64,000 bases of DNA from Paracoccus halophilus (GTDB lineage Bacteria > Pseudomonadota > Alphaproteobacteria > Rhodobacterales > Rhodobacteraceae), in contig NZ_JRKN01000020.1 in assembly GCF_000763905.1 (NCBI RefSeq), positions 1 to 64,000 of the forward strand, in the 5' to 3' direction. Within the stretch, counting starts at the first letter, position 1, and every line of letters begins with the position of its first letter. Below, piece by piece: positions 39,400 through 46,149 of this stretch. The notes beneath the pieces were generated by a model. It was not told where the DNA came from. It saw only the letters and a program-made list of their open reading frames with translations, and made no database searches. Made by a program: the position numbers and the translations under genes.

Positions 39400-40465
39400 G
39401 CGATCTGCTCTAAGGCGTAAGCGCCTGGTGCTCTGCCGCATCGAGCGCTGACCAGCGCGGCTCGATCTGGACAGCTACCCCTACCTGCCCCGGGCGCGCG
39501 TCCAGACCACGAAACCAGCCAGCTAAATGAACCTGATGTCCGGAGCATCCGCATGAACGACACGCCCCAGATCCTGCTCCGGCATCATCTCAAGAAGCTC
39601 AAGCTGCCGACCTTCCAAGAACGAGTACGCCAAACATGCCCGCCAATGCGCATCGGAAGCCCAAGATCATGTCCAGTTTCTGCTACGCCTGCGCGAACGG
39701 GAGTTGGTAGAGCGCGAGCGTCGAATGATCGAACGCCGCATCAAGGCTGCAAGGTTCCCGGCCACCAAAAGCCTGGACAATTTCGACTTAAAGGCGATCC
39801 GTTCACTCAACACGGCATTGACGATGGAACTGGCACGCTGCAAATTCATCGACCGGCGGGAGAGCGTCATCGCCCTTGAGTCAAGCGGCACCGACAAGAC
39901 ATATGTCAGCCTGGGCCTTGGCCTCGCCGCCTGCCAGAAAGGCCTGCAGGTGCGCTTCACTGCCGCTTCCGCCCTGGTCTTGCGAACTTGTCGAGGCCAT
40001 CGACGAACGCCGCCTGCAGCGCCTGCAAAAATCCCTCGCAATCCAGGATCTGCTGATCATCGATGAACTCGGGTTCGTGCCGCTTATCAAGACCGGTGCC
40101 GAACTGCTGTACGAAATCATCTCGCAGCGCCACGAGCGTGGCTCGATCATCATCACCTCGAACCTGCCCTGCGACGAATGAACCGAGGTCTTCGGATTCG
40201 AAAGACATACGGGTGCAATCCTCGACCTCCTGACCCACCAAGCCCATATCCTCGAGATGAACGGCGAGAGCTTCCGCCTGCGCCAGAGCCGCACGGCCAA
40301 AGCCTGATCCCGCAATCACCGCCAAAGGGAAACTGACCTTCGGCCAGTGCGCCTTGACGCGCGTCAGCCTTCTGGTGGGCACACGCGCCATGGCGCATAC
40401 CAGATCACCGCTACCGGGGGCTATTCCACCGCAACGCTGACCAATTTTGCCCCGGGACTGACACC
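39400..40465 (+). mobile_element. IS21-family remnant (istA tail plus istB)
   Basis: Begins just after tRNA-Phe. A short in-frame tail ending LPRARVQTTKPAS and a stop at 39524-39526 is like the end of IstA, and the IstB frame starts at 39553, the usual IS21 order. The sequence from 40308 to about 40465 is probably the right flank of the element, cut where the IS5 remnant begins. Exact ends and terminal repeats could not be found. The rest of istA is missing, so the element is dead. Confidence 0.65.
39553..40307 (+). pseudogene. istB-like IS21 helper ATPase, degraded
   Basis: The normal product is an AAA+ ATPase that assists the IstA transposase. Homology runs through three frames: MNDTPQILLRHHLKKLKLPTF from 39553, then (after a shift near 39620) LRERELVERERRMIERRIKA.., then (after a second shift near 39980) LLIIDELGFVPLIKTGAELL to the tail. 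An in-frame TGA at about 40179 interrupts the third part where a Trp codon is expected, before TEVFGFERHTGAILD. The Walker A reads SSGTDKT instead of SGTGKT. Two frameshifts, a stop and a damaged P-loop show long decay. Confidence 0.85.
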
Positions 40466-41231
40466 GAGCCAAGCAAAGGTGCGTTCTACGACCCAGCGGC
40501 GGGGCAGAATTTCTAAACCTTCGGCGGTGTCGGATCGCTTGACGATCTGGAGCGTCCAGTGCGCGATCTGCTTGAGCGCATCCCTGAGCTTGGATCCGGC
40601 ATGGCCGCCGTCGGCGAAAATGTGGCGCGGCATGGGGTAGCGCTTGGCGACGGTCTTCAACACATTCGGCGCGCCGTCGCGATCCTGAATTGCGGCGCTG
40701 TGGATCTCGAGCCCCACCAACAATCCCACCGTATCGGTCACGATATGACGTTTGCGCCCTTTGATCCGCTTCCCTGCATCATACCCGCAAACCCCGCCGC
40801 TTTCAGTTGTTTTCACGCTCTGGTTGTCGATGATCCCTGGGCTGGACTTCACGGCCCTCGGCAAGGCGCGTGACCTGGACCAGCCTGCGATTCAAATCAT
40901 CCCGAAGACCGTGATTGCGCCAAACATAGAAATAGCCCCGCGCCGTGGACACCGGCGGGAAGTCCTTGGGCAACATGCGCCATTGGCAATAACCGGTCGT
41001 GGCAACGTATAGGATGGCGTCGACGACATCACGCAAGTAAGTCGTGCGAGGCCGGCCGGTTGACTTGCGGGCGGGCAGTAAAGGGGCAATCACCGCCCAT
41101 TCTGTGTCGGTCAAATCGCTTGCGTATCTGTCGCCTGCTCGGTCATGCTGACGGCCGGTGAGTTTGGCACAGGCCATCGTGATTTTCGTTCGGCTTCGCA
41201 ACCGAACAGAATCACAACCTGCTGAACTCAC
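40421..41231 (-). pseudogene. IS5-family transposase remnant, frameshifted and 3'-truncated
   Basis: Minus-strand DDE transposase in two frames. The 5' part (DLTDTEWAVIAPLLPARKST .. YLRDVVDAILYVATTGYCQW) lies in 40803-41231; the 3' part has the catalytic regions GIIDNQSVKTTESGG, HIFADGGHAGSKL and VVERTFAWLG in 40421-40864. The homology stops abruptly after FAWLG at about 40466, where sequence of the IS21 remnant takes over, so the C-terminus is missing. The left IS end is near 41237 (GTTCAGCAGGTTGTGATTC on the minus strand). Some IS5 groups use programmed frameshifting, but the truncation makes this copy inactive. Confidence 0.82.
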
Positions 41232-42109
41232 TCAATTACTTTCAAATCACCTTCTGAGTGAGGCCGCGGTGCGTGCACACTGGTCAGGCTCCACAGATCC
41301 GACTGGTTCAAAAAGGGAAAATTCTTCGCCAGAATTTGGTCGAAATCTCCGCTCGTGATCGGAGAGATCCCGCTGTTCGACCCGGGCACGACCCGACGCG
41401 AATCGTGCCCTTCGAATTTCAGTTGCAACGAGCCATGGGGGCGCGGATCGGCCAGTGAGGGGAAACGCTGCATCAGCGCATAATGGCCATAGGCAAAAAG
41501 ACTGCGATCCGCCTTTGGCAGGCGCAGTGCTGCGCCGCCGCCGTGAAAGGGGCGCCGGAACTCGTAGCACTGCGGATCTGCGCCCTGATAACGTGTCATC
41601 ACCAGCCCGCGCGGCAGCGAAAACGCGAATGCCGGATAGTCCTGCATCGCCCGCGCCGCGGCGGCCAGATGGGCAATGTAATCGGTCGAGACGCAATCGT
41701 CGTCGTCCAGCCGGAACTGGATCAGTGGCACGCGGCAACCCATAGACAATTCGTTCAGGACCGGGGCCAGGGCGCTGCCGACATCGCGCGCCTCGGAAAA
41801 GATCAACCGGATGCTCGGCTGTTCGGCACAAAGCGCCGTCAGCCGATCGCGCCACGGGGCCGGCATCGCGGCCGAACTCAGCACGACAAAGCTGAAGTCC
41901 CGATTCGTCTGCGCCGCCAGCGACGCCAGTGTCAGCATCTCGAAGCTGCGAAAGCGAAATTCCAGCCGCGCCTCGTCATAAAGCGCCGCATGAGTTCGCC
42001 GCATCGCCTCGGTTTCGGCCTCCGAGCCCGGTTTGGTCCGCGCGTAAGCCCCCCAATCGCCCCGCCCCCAGAACGAAAAGCGGCAAAATCCGACGATATG
42101 CTCAGACAT
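41228..42109 (-). CDS. putative rhamnosyl/glycosyltransferase, PF11316-like
   Basis: 293-aa soluble protein. The start MSEHIVGFCRFSFWGRGDWG, then LTLASLAAQTNRDFSFVVLSS and the DxD-like IQFRLDDDDCVSTDYIAHL, fit the putative rhamnosyl transferase family of Rhodobacteraceae, with a GT-A-like metal site. The donor and acceptor are unknown; surface polysaccharide is likely. GGGAGAG precedes the ATG at 42109. The stop codon falls at the edge of the IS5 remnant, so the last residues may be altered by the insertion. The 260 bp upstream, to the cyclase gene, hold nothing I can identify. Confidence 0.75.
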   Translation of the reverse strand: MSEHIVGFCRFSFWGRGDWGAYARTKPGSEAETEAMRRTHAALYDEARLEFRFRSFEMLTLASLAAQTNRDFSFVVLSSAAMPAPWRDRLTALCAEQPSIRLIFSEARDVGSALAPVLNELSMGCRVPLIQFRLDDDDCVSTDYIAHLAAAARAMQDYPAFAFSLPRGLVMTRYQGADPQCYEFRRPFHGGGAALRLPKADRSLFAYGHYALMQRFPSLADPRPHGSLQLKFEGHDSRRVVPGSNSGISPITSGDFDQILAKNFPFLNQSDLWSLTSVHAPRPHSEGDLKVIE

Positions 42110-42369
42110 GGCTCTCCCCGTGCCGCCGCGCGTCCGCAAACACCCTTGCAGCTTGGGTTTTACCTATCCCGCCGGCCTTGACAACCTGCGGTCGCACCAA
42201 GCGGGCGGGGCCCGAGGCAATTTCACCGCCGGCGAGAATGCGCTGCGTCCCGCCCTTTCGGGCGCTGTCATCTGGGCATTGCCGGTATCTGCGCCGAAGG
42301 AAAGATGCAACAAGCTGGGGCGCGCCATTCCTGTGGCGACCATGTGCGTGACCGAAGGCTTGGCCCGGT

Positions 42370-43350
42370 TCATCCGCGATCCGCCAGGATAACCCTGCCT
42401 CCTCCCATCGCCTTGGCACGATACAGGGCCGCATCCGCTCGCGCGATTTCTCGCCCGAGATCGCAGTCAAACGACATCGCGAACCTTGCCACGCCGACAC
42501 TCGCGGAAAGCCGCGCGGTACCGGATCCCAGCAGAATCGGCACCTCGATCCTTTCAATGATCCGTTGCAGGATGCCAAGCAGCCCGGGCTGCGAAGCAAG
42601 CCCGCCAAACAGAATCAGGAACTCGTCGCCACCGACCCGCCCGACAACGTCGCCGCGCCGCACGCCCAGCCGGATCGCTTCGGCCACCGCCACCAGCACC
42701 TCGTCCCCCGCGGCATGCCCCAGACGGTCATTGACCTCCTTGAACAGGTCCAGATCCAGTGCCGCGATCGCGTATTGCGGGTTGTTCCCTGCCGCCGCCA
42801 GCTTGCCACATTCGACAAGGAAACCGCGGCGGTTCAGTAGCCCCGTCAGCGTGTCCGTCACCGATATGCGCTCGGCCTCGCGGCGCTCGTGCTCAAGCGC
42901 GATATTGGCGCGCGATATCTCGCCCATGATGGCTTGGCTGGCTTGGTAAAGAAACAACAACTCGATGACATGATCCGAGGGCGAAAAATCCGCCTCGTTC
43001 AGTGCGAAGCTGATGATGGCATGCGGCAATGTCATTCCGAAGCCAAAGTTCAGAAGCAGGGTTTCATCGCCGATGCGAACGCCATGCCCGCGCAGCATAA
43101 GCTTGTCATATCCGCGCACTCGCACCAGAACCCGGCGACCGCTTTCTAAGGCCGAGATGATATCGCCCTCGGATCCATTTTTCAGAGAAGGCATATCCAG
43201 GGCGAACACATCCTGAAAACTCTGTGCATCGCCCAGCAATCTGCGGATCAATGGGCCCGCCCCCATGATCCTGCCCTGCAGGTCGATGACAAGATGCATC
43301 GGCATCATCTGATCCGCCCCAGCCGCATCTATACTATAGATCGGTTTCAA
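42370..43350 (-). CDS. diguanylate cyclase with HNOBA-like sensory domain
   Basis: 326-aa soluble protein. Residues ~15-140 match the heme-NO-binding-associated (HNOBA, PAS-like) domain: MHLVIDLQGRIMGAGPLIRRL, LMLRGHGVRIGDETLLLNFG, FALNEADFSPSDHVIELLFL. A coiled coil (~145-165) leads to a GGDEF domain with DTLTGLLNRRGF, DLDLFKEVNDRLGH and an intact VGGDEF active site; the RxxD inhibitory site (RRGD) sits exactly 5 residues before GGDEF. It should make cyclic di-GMP under control of the upstream H-NOX-like protein. Its start overlaps that gene by ATGA at 43350. Confidence 0.92.
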   Translation of the reverse strand: MKPIYSIDAAGADQMMPMHLVIDLQGRIMGAGPLIRRLLGDAQSFQDVFALDMPSLKNGSEGDIISALESGRRVLVRVRGYDKLMLRGHGVRIGDETLLLNFGFGMTLPHAIISFALNEADFSPSDHVIELLFLYQASQAIMGEISRANIALEHERREAERISVTDTLTGLLNRRGFLVECGKLAAAGNNPQYAIAALDLDLFKEVNDRLGHAAGDEVLVAVAEAIRLGVRRGDVVGRVGGDEFLILFGGLASQPGLLGILQRIIERIEVPILLGSGTARLSASVGVARFAMSFDCDLGREIARADAALYRAKAMGGGRVILADRG

Positions 43351-43925
43351 AGCCGGGCTCCGTGCATATTGCCCGCGACCAGCGCAAAGGGACGTTCGGC
43401 GCCGTATTGGCTCATTGCGATATCGACCCGCACCCCCGGCGCTGCTGCGGCGATGACGGCCAGTGCGCCATAATCATCCGCCATTCCCCGCAGCACGCCG
43501 GCCAGCAGCATCGTCCAGAGCCCGGTATCACCTTCGATCTCGACCTCGTAGGCCGCTTCTGAGCATCTACTGACCGAAATTCTGGGAATCTCAAGACACT
43601 CCACCACCATCAGCGCCCGGTCGGGAAACTCGCTCAACGATTCGACAAATTCCGGAAAATTCCGACCGCTGAAGCGCAAGAGACGGCGTATCGCTTCGCG
43701 TTGAGTCAGCCAGGCGCCGAGATCCTCGGTCAGTTCATCCGCAGTCTTGCCCAGGATGTTCGAGCCTTCGGCAACCAGCATATCGGTCACCGAGCCGGAG
43801 GAATTCTGCAGAAGGAAAAAACCGCGGGGATCCACCCTGGCGCGGCGAGCCAGGTTTTCCCAGACCCGATCGCCATAGCTGTCCCGTATGAACAGCTCGA
43901 AAGAGCGATTGATCAATCCATGCAT
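43347..43925 (-). CDS. H-NOX (heme-NO-binding) family protein lacking heme ligands
   Basis: 192-aa protein with an H-NOX start (MHGLINRSFELFIRDSYGDRVW) and the expected length and layout. By eye, the region around the proximal heme His (about residue 102) reads FVESLSEFPDRAL, with Pro101 where His is expected, and the Y-x-S-x-R heme-carboxylate motif is replaced by I-x-G-x-T around residue 130. The only histidines are His2 and His188. It may fold as H-NOX but is unlikely to bind heme in the usual way. It lies between comEC (1 bp gap) and the HNOBA-GGDEF gene (4-bp overlap), the standard H-NOX/cyclase pairing. AAGGAA precedes the ATG. Confidence 0.85.
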   Translation of the reverse strand: MHGLINRSFELFIRDSYGDRVWENLARRARVDPRGFFLLQNSSGSVTDMLVAEGSNILGKTADELTEDLGAWLTQREAIRRLLRFSGRNFPEFVESLSEFPDRALMVVECLEIPRISVSRCSEAAYEVEIEGDTGLWTMLLAGVLRGMADDYGALAVIAAAAPGVRVDIAMSQYGAERPFALVAGNMHGARL

Positions 43926-43926
43926 G

Positions 43927-46149
43927 TCATTTCCTTGAAAAGGAAAAATCAGGCAGAGCGGTGGCGGCCGCCGCGTCGTGGTCGCCAGTCCAGGCACGGC
44001 CGAAGCGGCTATCATCCGTCGATGCCAGCCGGAAGCCGCCCCCACTTGCAACCAGGGCGATGGCGCCGGACTGCTGCAGCGTTTCCCGGTCCAGCACGAT
44101 GCACTCCTGGCCCTCGGGGCGCCCGGCGGAGGCATTCACCACGATCAACGCTCCCTCGTGGCAAAAGGCAGCAACATTGGCCGGGCCGCTTTTGCCTGTC
44201 AAATGGTGGACGGTCAGCATCGGGCGCGGCGAGCCGATGTCAGCGCTGCGGGCGGACATAGCCCCATGCCAGCCGCTGCGCGCGGCGGCCTGTGTTCGGG
44301 ACACCGGATCGCCATCCGCCGCCAACCAGTTCGTGACGGCAAAAGCCCCGCCCCCGGGTTTCGAGGGCACGCGCCCGGCATCGGTCATGATCGCCACGGC
44401 ATCGCCTTCGGCCGAGATCAGCATCAGAGGACGTTCGGCCGCAAGCCAAAGCCCGCCCGAGAGGATCAGCATGAGCGCCCCGACAGCGCGGCGCATTTGC
44501 CCGAGCCACGGCATCTCGCCGGATTGCAGCGCCGGCGTCACCATCAACATCGCGCCGGCGCCCATCAGCGGCAACACCATTGGCGGCGCGGCGGGCACCA
44601 GTGTGACCGCACCATCCAAGCCGCCGATCCATTCGGCCACCAGCAGCATCCATTTCACGCCCTGCCCCATGACCCAGAGCGCCGGCCCCGCCAGCCCGAA
44701 GGGCGCCAGCACGGCGGCGAGAACACCCCCCGGCATGACCAGCGTTCCCACGACCGGCACGACCAGCAGGTTCGCGACCAAACCGTATTGCGCAATTCGC
44801 CCGAAATGAACGGCGGCGATGGGCGAAGTCGCCAGGCCCGCCACCAGCGAGGACAGAAACAGCATGGCGAGCGGCCGCAGCCACCACGGCAATCGCGGCG
44901 CGATCGCCAGCCAGGGCCCCTGCACGAGGATCAGCGCGACAGTGGCGGCAAAGCTCATCTGGAAACCGGGAGAGGTCAGCGCCTCGGGCGTCGCGATCAG
45001 GATGATGACGGCCGCCACCGCGACCGTGCGCAGGGAAATGGCACGCCGATCCACGATGATCGCCAGCAGCATGACGGCGACCATGATAAAGGCGCGCTCG
45101 GTCGCCACGCCTCCGCCCGACAGCCACAGATAGGCGGCTGAGGCGATCAGCGCCCCGACGGCGGCGGCCTTGTGCAGCGGCCATCCTGGCGCGGCGCCAA
45201 ACCCCTGCGCCGCTGCCCCGGCCAGGCGCAGCGCCGCATAGGCAAAGCCGGCGAGCATGCTCATATGCAGCCCCGAGATCGAGACGATATGATAGAGGTT
45301 CGCGGCGCGCATGAGCTCGTTCGTCGATTCTTCGATTCCGGATCGGTCGCCCGTCATCAGCGCCGCCGAGACGGCGCCGGCCTGACCGCCGATCTGCCCG
45401 GCGATCGCCCCGGACAGCGACATGCGCAGCCTGTGCAGGGTCTCGATCCCTCCGGCGCGGGGCGGCGCCACGGTCAGGACCGGCGTCCGGGAATAGCCCA
45501 CCGCGCCCAGACGCGAAAACCATGCCAGCCGGCGAAAATCGAAACCGCCCGGCTCGGACGGACCCGCCGGAGGGCCAAGATGCGCGGTCAGCATCAAGGT
45601 CGCGCCCGGCTCAGGCAACGCCTCGGACGACAGCAGCGAGATGCGGACGCGTTCGGGTTGCTTCCAGGGCGCGACATCGTGCAGGCGCACCCGGTCCAGC
45701 GTGATGCGCATGCGATCGCGCGCGGATCGGTCGATCGCGATCACCCGCCCTTCGACCGGGCCGTAATAGCGAAAACCCAGCACCGGCGCCGCGACCATCT
45801 GGCTGCGCAGCCCTGCCAGACCGGTGCCCGCGACCACCAGCACAAGCGCCAGCGATGCCAGTTGAAGCCGCTCACCCGTGGCCCAGCCGATCCGCCCCGC
45901 TTCGGCAAGCCGCAACGCGCGCCATCCCGCAAGAATGGCGGCCAGACCCAGCAGGGCAAGCAAGGCGTAGAAACTCCGCCCCGGCTCGTCGGGCAGCCAG
46001 AACCAGCCGCCGATCCCCAGCGACAGCCAGAACGGCACCCATGGCAGCAATCCGGCCCGCCGCGAAAGGGCGGCGTGGCGCGCGCGCGGCACAGTCGCCG
46101 ACATGCGCCGGGCGGGCAGCCCCGCGGGCGATGCGCTCACCGAATGCAT
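43927..46149 (-). CDS. comEC: ComEC/Rec2-family DNA uptake channel protein
   Basis: 740-aa multi-span inner-membrane protein of the competence channel family. An N-terminal DUF4131-like part ([34 protein letters not shown] split as strands) precedes the Competence domain with [33 protein letters not shown] and [16 protein letters not shown]. The C-terminal 200 residues lack the HxHxDH metallo-beta-lactamase motif found in ComEC of many bacteria, as is common in alphaproteobacteria. The start at 46149 has no strong ribosome binding site; 46104 is an alternative. Divergent from gltX. First gene of an operon with the H-NOX-like and cyclase genes. Confidence 0.9.

Follow-up and report, generated by a model that had tools for sequence, protein, structure and literature searches.

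How does an H-NOX protein that has lost the histidine by which heme is held come to be kept beside a diguanylate cyclase, and what does it do there? The locus that raises this question lies on the minus strand of a Paracoccus halophilus contig, in a window of 64,000 nucleotides (the whole stretch of DNA that was analyzed); its features are collected in Table 1. The gene order on this strand is comEC, then the H-NOX-like gene, then the GGDEF gene. comEC is directly upstream, its end at 43927 lying 1 bp from the H-NOX start at 43925, and the H-NOX end at 43347 overlaps a possible TTG start of the cyclase at 43350 by 4 bp. These coordinates agree with the two gene contacts described in a first-pass annotation of this DNA, the second of them given the possible TTG start. 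The same -4 position recurs in relatives, where 68 of 112 cyclase ORFs have there the start codon that lies closest to the end of H-NOX, so the overlap is a repeated feature and not due to chance; judged by sequence, the exact start in P. halophilus can be the TTG at 43350. The match of the comEC product to ComEC_Rec2 is below the NCBIfam cut-off. The H-NOX-like protein is the sole HNOB match in its genome. Insertion-sequence remains (39704-41231) lie beside a rhamnosyl-transferase-like gene (41228-42139, minus strand); they comprise an IS4/5-type transposase in two frames (40803-41231 and 40421-40864, minus strand) and IS21 IstB pieces at 39704-40181 on the plus strand.

Table 1. Features of the comEC, H-NOX-like and GGDEF genes in the P. 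halophilus window
Feature	Coordinates	Strand	Description
comEC	43927..46149	-	740 aa; Pfam Competence 5.2e-62
H-NOX-like protein gene	43347..43925	-	192 aa, group-5 H-NOX without proximal His (translation)
Pro101 codon CCC	43623..43625	-	place of the proximal heme-ligand His (alignment column)
Residues 130-134, I-E-G-D-T	43524..43538	-	place of Y-x-S-x-R (multiple alignment)
GGDEF diguanylate cyclase	42370..43350	-	326 aa from TTG; Pfam GGDEF 2.1e-32
Cyclase N-terminal PAS-like region, residues 1-115	43006..43350	-	tentatively taken as degenerate HNOBA domain
RxxD product-inhibition site, cyclase residues 231-234	42649..42660	-	sequence motif
GGDEF active-site motif, cyclase residues 240-244	42619..42633	-	invariant in 76 aligned rows

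The H-NOX fold proposed in the first-pass annotation is borne out by both profile and structure, and the P. halophilus protein belongs to the H-NOX / HNOB fold family. It matches Pfam HNOB (PF07700) at 7.2e-14 and scores 52.4 bits, where the cut-off is 25.5. The AlphaFold2 model, for which 106 of the 115 group-5 sequences defined below were used as input and 7 near-copies were left out by hand, has a pLDDT of 91.8 and a pTM of 0.85. A fold search with this model matched human sGC (8hbh_B; Z 20.6, rmsd 2.1 over 171 residues), Nostoc H-NOX (2o09_A; Z 20.1, rmsd 2.2 over 169 residues) and the S. oneidensis chain 4u99_A (Z 18.7). Further matches, at Z 8.4-9.1, are Bet3/TRAPP chains, and one of them (6aq3_A) carries covalently bound palmitate.

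Within this fold the features of a canonical heme H-NOX, the proximal His and the Y-x-S-x-R motif, are both missing, as had been claimed. Pairwise, profile and multiple alignments all place Pro101 in the canonical proximal-His column, and their concordance rules out an alignment artefact; in the multiple alignment, I130, G132 and T134 occupy the Y-x-S-x-R columns. The translation contains His2 and His188 and no other histidines. The gene nevertheless looks maintained. dN/dS is approximately 0.20 and 0.29 against the two closest relatives, values that are rough at a dS of 1.0-1.3, and together with the conserved residues particular to the group (below) they suggest a working protein rather than a decaying sensor. 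A pseudogene is ruled out by the open frame and the same dN/dS of about 0.2-0.3.

The loss of the ligand is real, but most members of a group already published share it, and it is not a peculiarity of this genome. Excerpts of PMC5588039 describe the H-NOX proteins of Paracoccus denitrificans and Rhodobacter sphaeroides as lacking the axial His and the P. denitrificans gene as overlapping a GGDEF gene, and PMC8738867, likewise in excerpt, describes a large "Group 5" of H-NOX in which the proximal His is kept in less than 10% and replaced by Pro in most. The central point of the first-pass annotation, loss of the heme ligand in an H-NOX, is therefore already in print. By its clustering, its Pro and the lack of a conserved Cys (the commonest Cys column in group 5 reaches 28 of 115), the P. 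halophilus protein is a group-5 H-NOX, an assignment made from our own tree and motif split.

A profile match was found in 169 of 170 loci. Dropped before counting were L001 (a copy of the P. halophilus sequence), L123 (partial), L126 (no profile match), L162 and L078 (frame-broken) and 12 sequences that duplicate another over the first 150 residues, leaving 153 distinct sequences. In L162 and L078 the H-NOX-like gene appears as two profile matches in separate frames or ORFs, as if broken. "Group 5" here denotes the 115 sequences without a whole Y-x-S-x-R, and "canonical" the 38 with the motif. In the proximal column the canonical set has 37 His and 1 Gln; the Gln belongs to L109 and may be an alignment slip. 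The group-5 set has 83 Pro, 16 His, 6 Arg, 3 Gln, 2 Lys, 2 Gly, 2 Asn and 1 Ala. Its His share of 14% is a little above the published figure, in a sample that is uneven, having come partly from a peptide scan with the P. halophilus protein and partly from best-scoring matches. Among Paracoccus genomes, 97 of 101 have a match to the H-NOX-like protein. In a class-wide draw HNOB was found in 18 of 385 genomes, 13 of them outside Rhodobacteraceae; the 11 of these 13 proteins that were classed are all canonical, L123 and L126 having been left out.

Nine residues are nearly invariant in group 5 (n = 115): D68 (115), R80 (112), R81 (108), R84 (115), R103 (112), R146 (110), D150 (113), D151 (114) and Y152 (114). 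Some of them are seen in canonical sequences too, but only in a minority, and for none of the nine do both canonical sets have it as their most frequent letter. The structural Pro P114 is likewise conserved, in 111 of 115.

In a tree of the two sets (17 of the 38 canonical sequences and all 115 of group 5), canonical and group-5 sequences fall on opposite sides of a branch with support 99*, and the P. halophilus protein is on the same side as L011. With the canonical set as outgroup, the deepest group-5 sequences keep the His while their motif is no longer whole, although the support of these forks is moderate (88-93). A single loss of the His, modeled by forcing all His-less sequences together, was rejected (p-AU 0.0185) on a "quick" tree with a constrained group named after an earlier tree had been seen. 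This test used 6 canonical sequences, with L171-L173 added and L164, L166, L167 and L168 left out as long branches or fusions; L031 was also omitted, without good reason. It follows that the His was lost repeatedly, or else was regained after a loss.

Homologues in sister species that keep the His, which the first-pass annotation had set against its own reading, do occur: they are 16 of the 115, including P. sulfuroxidans (L035; identical to L015 over the first 150 residues) and probably Dinoroseobacter shibae, and the majority lack it. They show that the His can persist in the family; they do not restore it in P. halophilus. The L171 protein has the nine group-5 residues checked together with His101 and an Arg at the last motif position, and the L172 protein has Pro at the proximal position. 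We take L171 to be the D. shibae H-NOX (Dshi_2815) and L172 to be, presumably, from R. sphaeroides. This His-keeping member of group 5 is probably the D. shibae NO sensor: Table 4 of PMC8846402 includes the H-NOX of this species among heme NO sensors, and excerpts of PMC7232146 and PMC8846402 report that it inhibits Dgc1 when NO-bound.

A GGDEF gene adjoins or is fused to the H-NOX gene in all 115 group-5 sequences, compared with 8 of 38 canonical ones. Three single-chain H-NOX-GGDEF fusions were seen, L070 with His and L167 and L168 with Pro. RxxD-x5-GGxEF is whole in 111 of 112 group-5 partners and the P. halophilus cyclase has both motifs; its active and inhibitory sites are, as predicted from these motifs, intact, in line with the c-di-GMP cyclase partner named in the first-pass annotation. 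At the N terminus of the cyclase, 46 of the 76 partner orthologues scanned out of 112 matched Pfam HNOBA at E up to 1, the best of them at 6.7e-13; the P. halophilus cyclase has no HNOBA match at E up to 1, and its N-terminal 173 aa gave no credible match. The cyclase alignment covered 76 of the 112 partners, and the family profile matches sGC beta1 residues 206-383 (E 1.4e-5) and 2p04_A (E 4e-5). A model of the P. halophilus cyclase (pLDDT 92.8, pTM 0.69) has a PAS-like part, a long helix (128-164) and the GGDEF domain. The strands and helices of this model, along with the HNOBA matches of orthologues and the profile matches, are the grounds for tentatively taking residues 1-115 as a degenerate HNOBA domain. 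In a fold search the model matched mainly GGDEF chains, which tells little about its PAS-like part, with no HNOBA-type or sGC chain among the 50 matches listed.

The adjacency of comEC is real but confined to some Paracoccus. comEC is present in all 101 Paracoccus genomes; it is adjacent to the H-NOX-like gene in 22 of the 97 with a match, by coordinates compared by eye, where split contigs may hide some. A scripted count found it adjacent in 19 of 112 group-5 sequences with at least 1.2 kb upstream, all 19 within one branch of 25 Paracoccus sequences (support 82). The three-gene order described in the first-pass annotation thus holds here, but the comEC part of it does not extend to most relatives. 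As to a connection with gene transfer, excerpts of PMC7232146 report that an R. capsulatus c-di-GMP gene beside an H-NOX homologue affects gene transfer agent production and motility, and excerpts of PMC9143464 that this gene is CtrA-regulated. No TTAA-N6-8-TTAA (CtrA) site was found near comEC in P. halophilus or the 7 relatives looked at; there is a lone TTAACC in two relatives and a lone CGTTAA in P. halophilus. A word search of the available literature for H-NOX together with comEC found one paper, in which the two are dealt with separately in the portions available. A link of the H-NOX/cyclase pair to DNA uptake in P. halophilus is offered here as a hypothesis.

What, then, does the protein do? 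On balance it is probable, if only somewhat, that the group-5 H-NOX is a regulatory subunit of the neighboring diguanylate cyclase, which has kept the fold and the partnership, has lost the His-ligated heme and most likely inhibits without NO. The basis for this in the data is the fold, the ligand loss, the constant cyclase neighbor, the intact cyclase motifs and the signs of purifying selection. The protein, presumably devoid of heme, would contact the cyclase and hold it down with no need of NO, and output would be set by the amount of H-NOX-like protein or by a non-heme cue. In heme H-NOX, NO would act by breaking the heme iron-His bond, so natural loss of the His may lock the protein for good in its partner-inhibiting, NO-on form. 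A His-to-Gly H-NOX of Shewanella reportedly mimics the NO-bound state, and 2kil, by its title, is presumably its structure. A word search of the available literature for H-NOX with H103G found no paper, and PMC9756655 makes no mention of HNOB, H-NOX or HNOX. The abstract of PMC12329717 fits the iron-His bond model; in the same source, however, NO-bound Caulobacter H-NOX leaves its kinase uninhibited, and the iron-His rule therefore has exceptions.

Mutant phenotypes have been published for P. denitrificans, whose homologue (L128) has Pro at 101 and shares its first 150 residues with L011. We presume this protein to be Pden_3719. As described in the available parts of PMC5588039, loss of hnoX leaves attached growth partly deficient, and a dgcAB double mutant makes biofilm in excess; the authors of that paper suggest from this that H-NOX inhibits DgcA, with NO promoting inhibition. 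These opposite phenotypes also bear on the view that the protein is a passive scaffold like the sGC alpha-subunit H-NOX, needed for cyclase assembly or stability and not a switch. The GGDEF neighbor or fusion in 115 of 115 and the layout of split or fused H-NOX, PAS-like part, helix and cyclase, which resembles sGC, fit a scaffold, but loss of hnoX should then look like loss of the cyclase, and we consider a scaffold improbable. If the group-5 protein with His101 is that of D. shibae, as is probable, it is the H-NOX that reportedly inhibits Dgc1 in its NO-bound form. Against inhibition without NO, PMC5588039 still proposes, in the passages available, that NO acts through the P. denitrificans H-NOX; and c-di-GMP could not be detected in extracts of P. 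denitrificans (PMC12582929, in excerpt), which leaves the support for inhibition indirect.

That tie between H-NOX and the NO effect on biofilm (PMC5588039, in excerpt) could also mean that heme is still bound through another residue, for example His2, present in 85 of 115 group-5 sequences, and that the protein senses NO. Against this, 28 of 115 have neither His2 nor His101, and none of the 115 has a whole Y-x-S-x-R, which is true by definition of the set, although the same sequences also make up one side of the 99* branch. Tyr and Lys are commonest at canonical position 2, and thus His2 was not inherited from the canonical set; we regard such heme binding as quite improbable, the least likely of the explanations weighed. 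The main rival is a sensor of a different signal, in which some other ligand, for example a small anion or a lipid-like or acyl molecule, would occupy the former heme pocket or the new charged network and so gate the cyclase. The kept P114 (111 of 115) and the near-invariant charged residues would be needless for an always-on inhibitor and may point to a ligand or cue; the group-specific residues, purifying selection and retained fold are consistent with this, as are the Bet3/TRAPP matches with their palmitate-bearing chain and the raised acyl-homoserine lactone at high cell density in P. denitrificans without hnox (PMC12582929, in excerpt). A Z near 9 may, however, be merely a shared arrangement, and the lactone change may be indirect; we hold this explanation to be unlikely, though less so than the other two. 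Also unlikely, and a shade less credible than the main rival, is the wider view that Rhodobacteraceae H-NOX repeatedly shed the heme ligand and became switches for non-gas cues, through the charged network or an emptied apolar pocket, with cyclase output kept. An inhibitory subunit acting without NO is the reading that we prefer.

What heme-less H-NOX proteins sense is a question posed in PMC8738867, in the parts available. It is made easier to test by the constant cyclase partner and the rejection of a single His loss; further handles are a probable His-bearing group member that is a reported NO sensor and nine mutable group-specific residues. Added beyond what is in print are the 115/115 partner count, the intact partner sites, the signature residues, the rejected single loss and the probable His-keeping D. 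shibae member. The P. halophilus locus is in itself of modest value, being chiefly one more case of a puzzle already described.

Among known systems, the alpha-subunit H-NOX of soluble guanylate cyclase is without heme, and it resembles the P. halophilus protein as an H-NOX domain lacking heme beside a cyclase. The match is weaker (Z 9.2 for 7d9r_A, a chain we take to be sGC alpha; profile E 0.25 for alpha-1, 6pas_A), and the enzyme is a eukaryotic GMP cyclase. Canonical heme H-NOX proteins (Nostoc, Shewanella, Vibrio) have the fold in common with the P. halophilus protein, but keep the His in 37 of 38 and, by definition of the set, Y-x-S-x-R, both of which it lacks. The D. shibae pair, taking its H-NOX to be Dshi_2815, is alike in the group-5 signature residues and in a GGDEF partner (Dgc1) of the same N-terminal type, and unlike in keeping His101. 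In P. denitrificans, Pden_3719 and DgcA (Pden_3720) are described in excerpts of PMC5588039 and PMC8738867 with the same Pro at the proximal site and an overlapping or adjoining GGDEF gene; in L128 comEC is likewise directly upstream, 37 nt away, and the H-NOX proteins of the two species are 42.9% identical.
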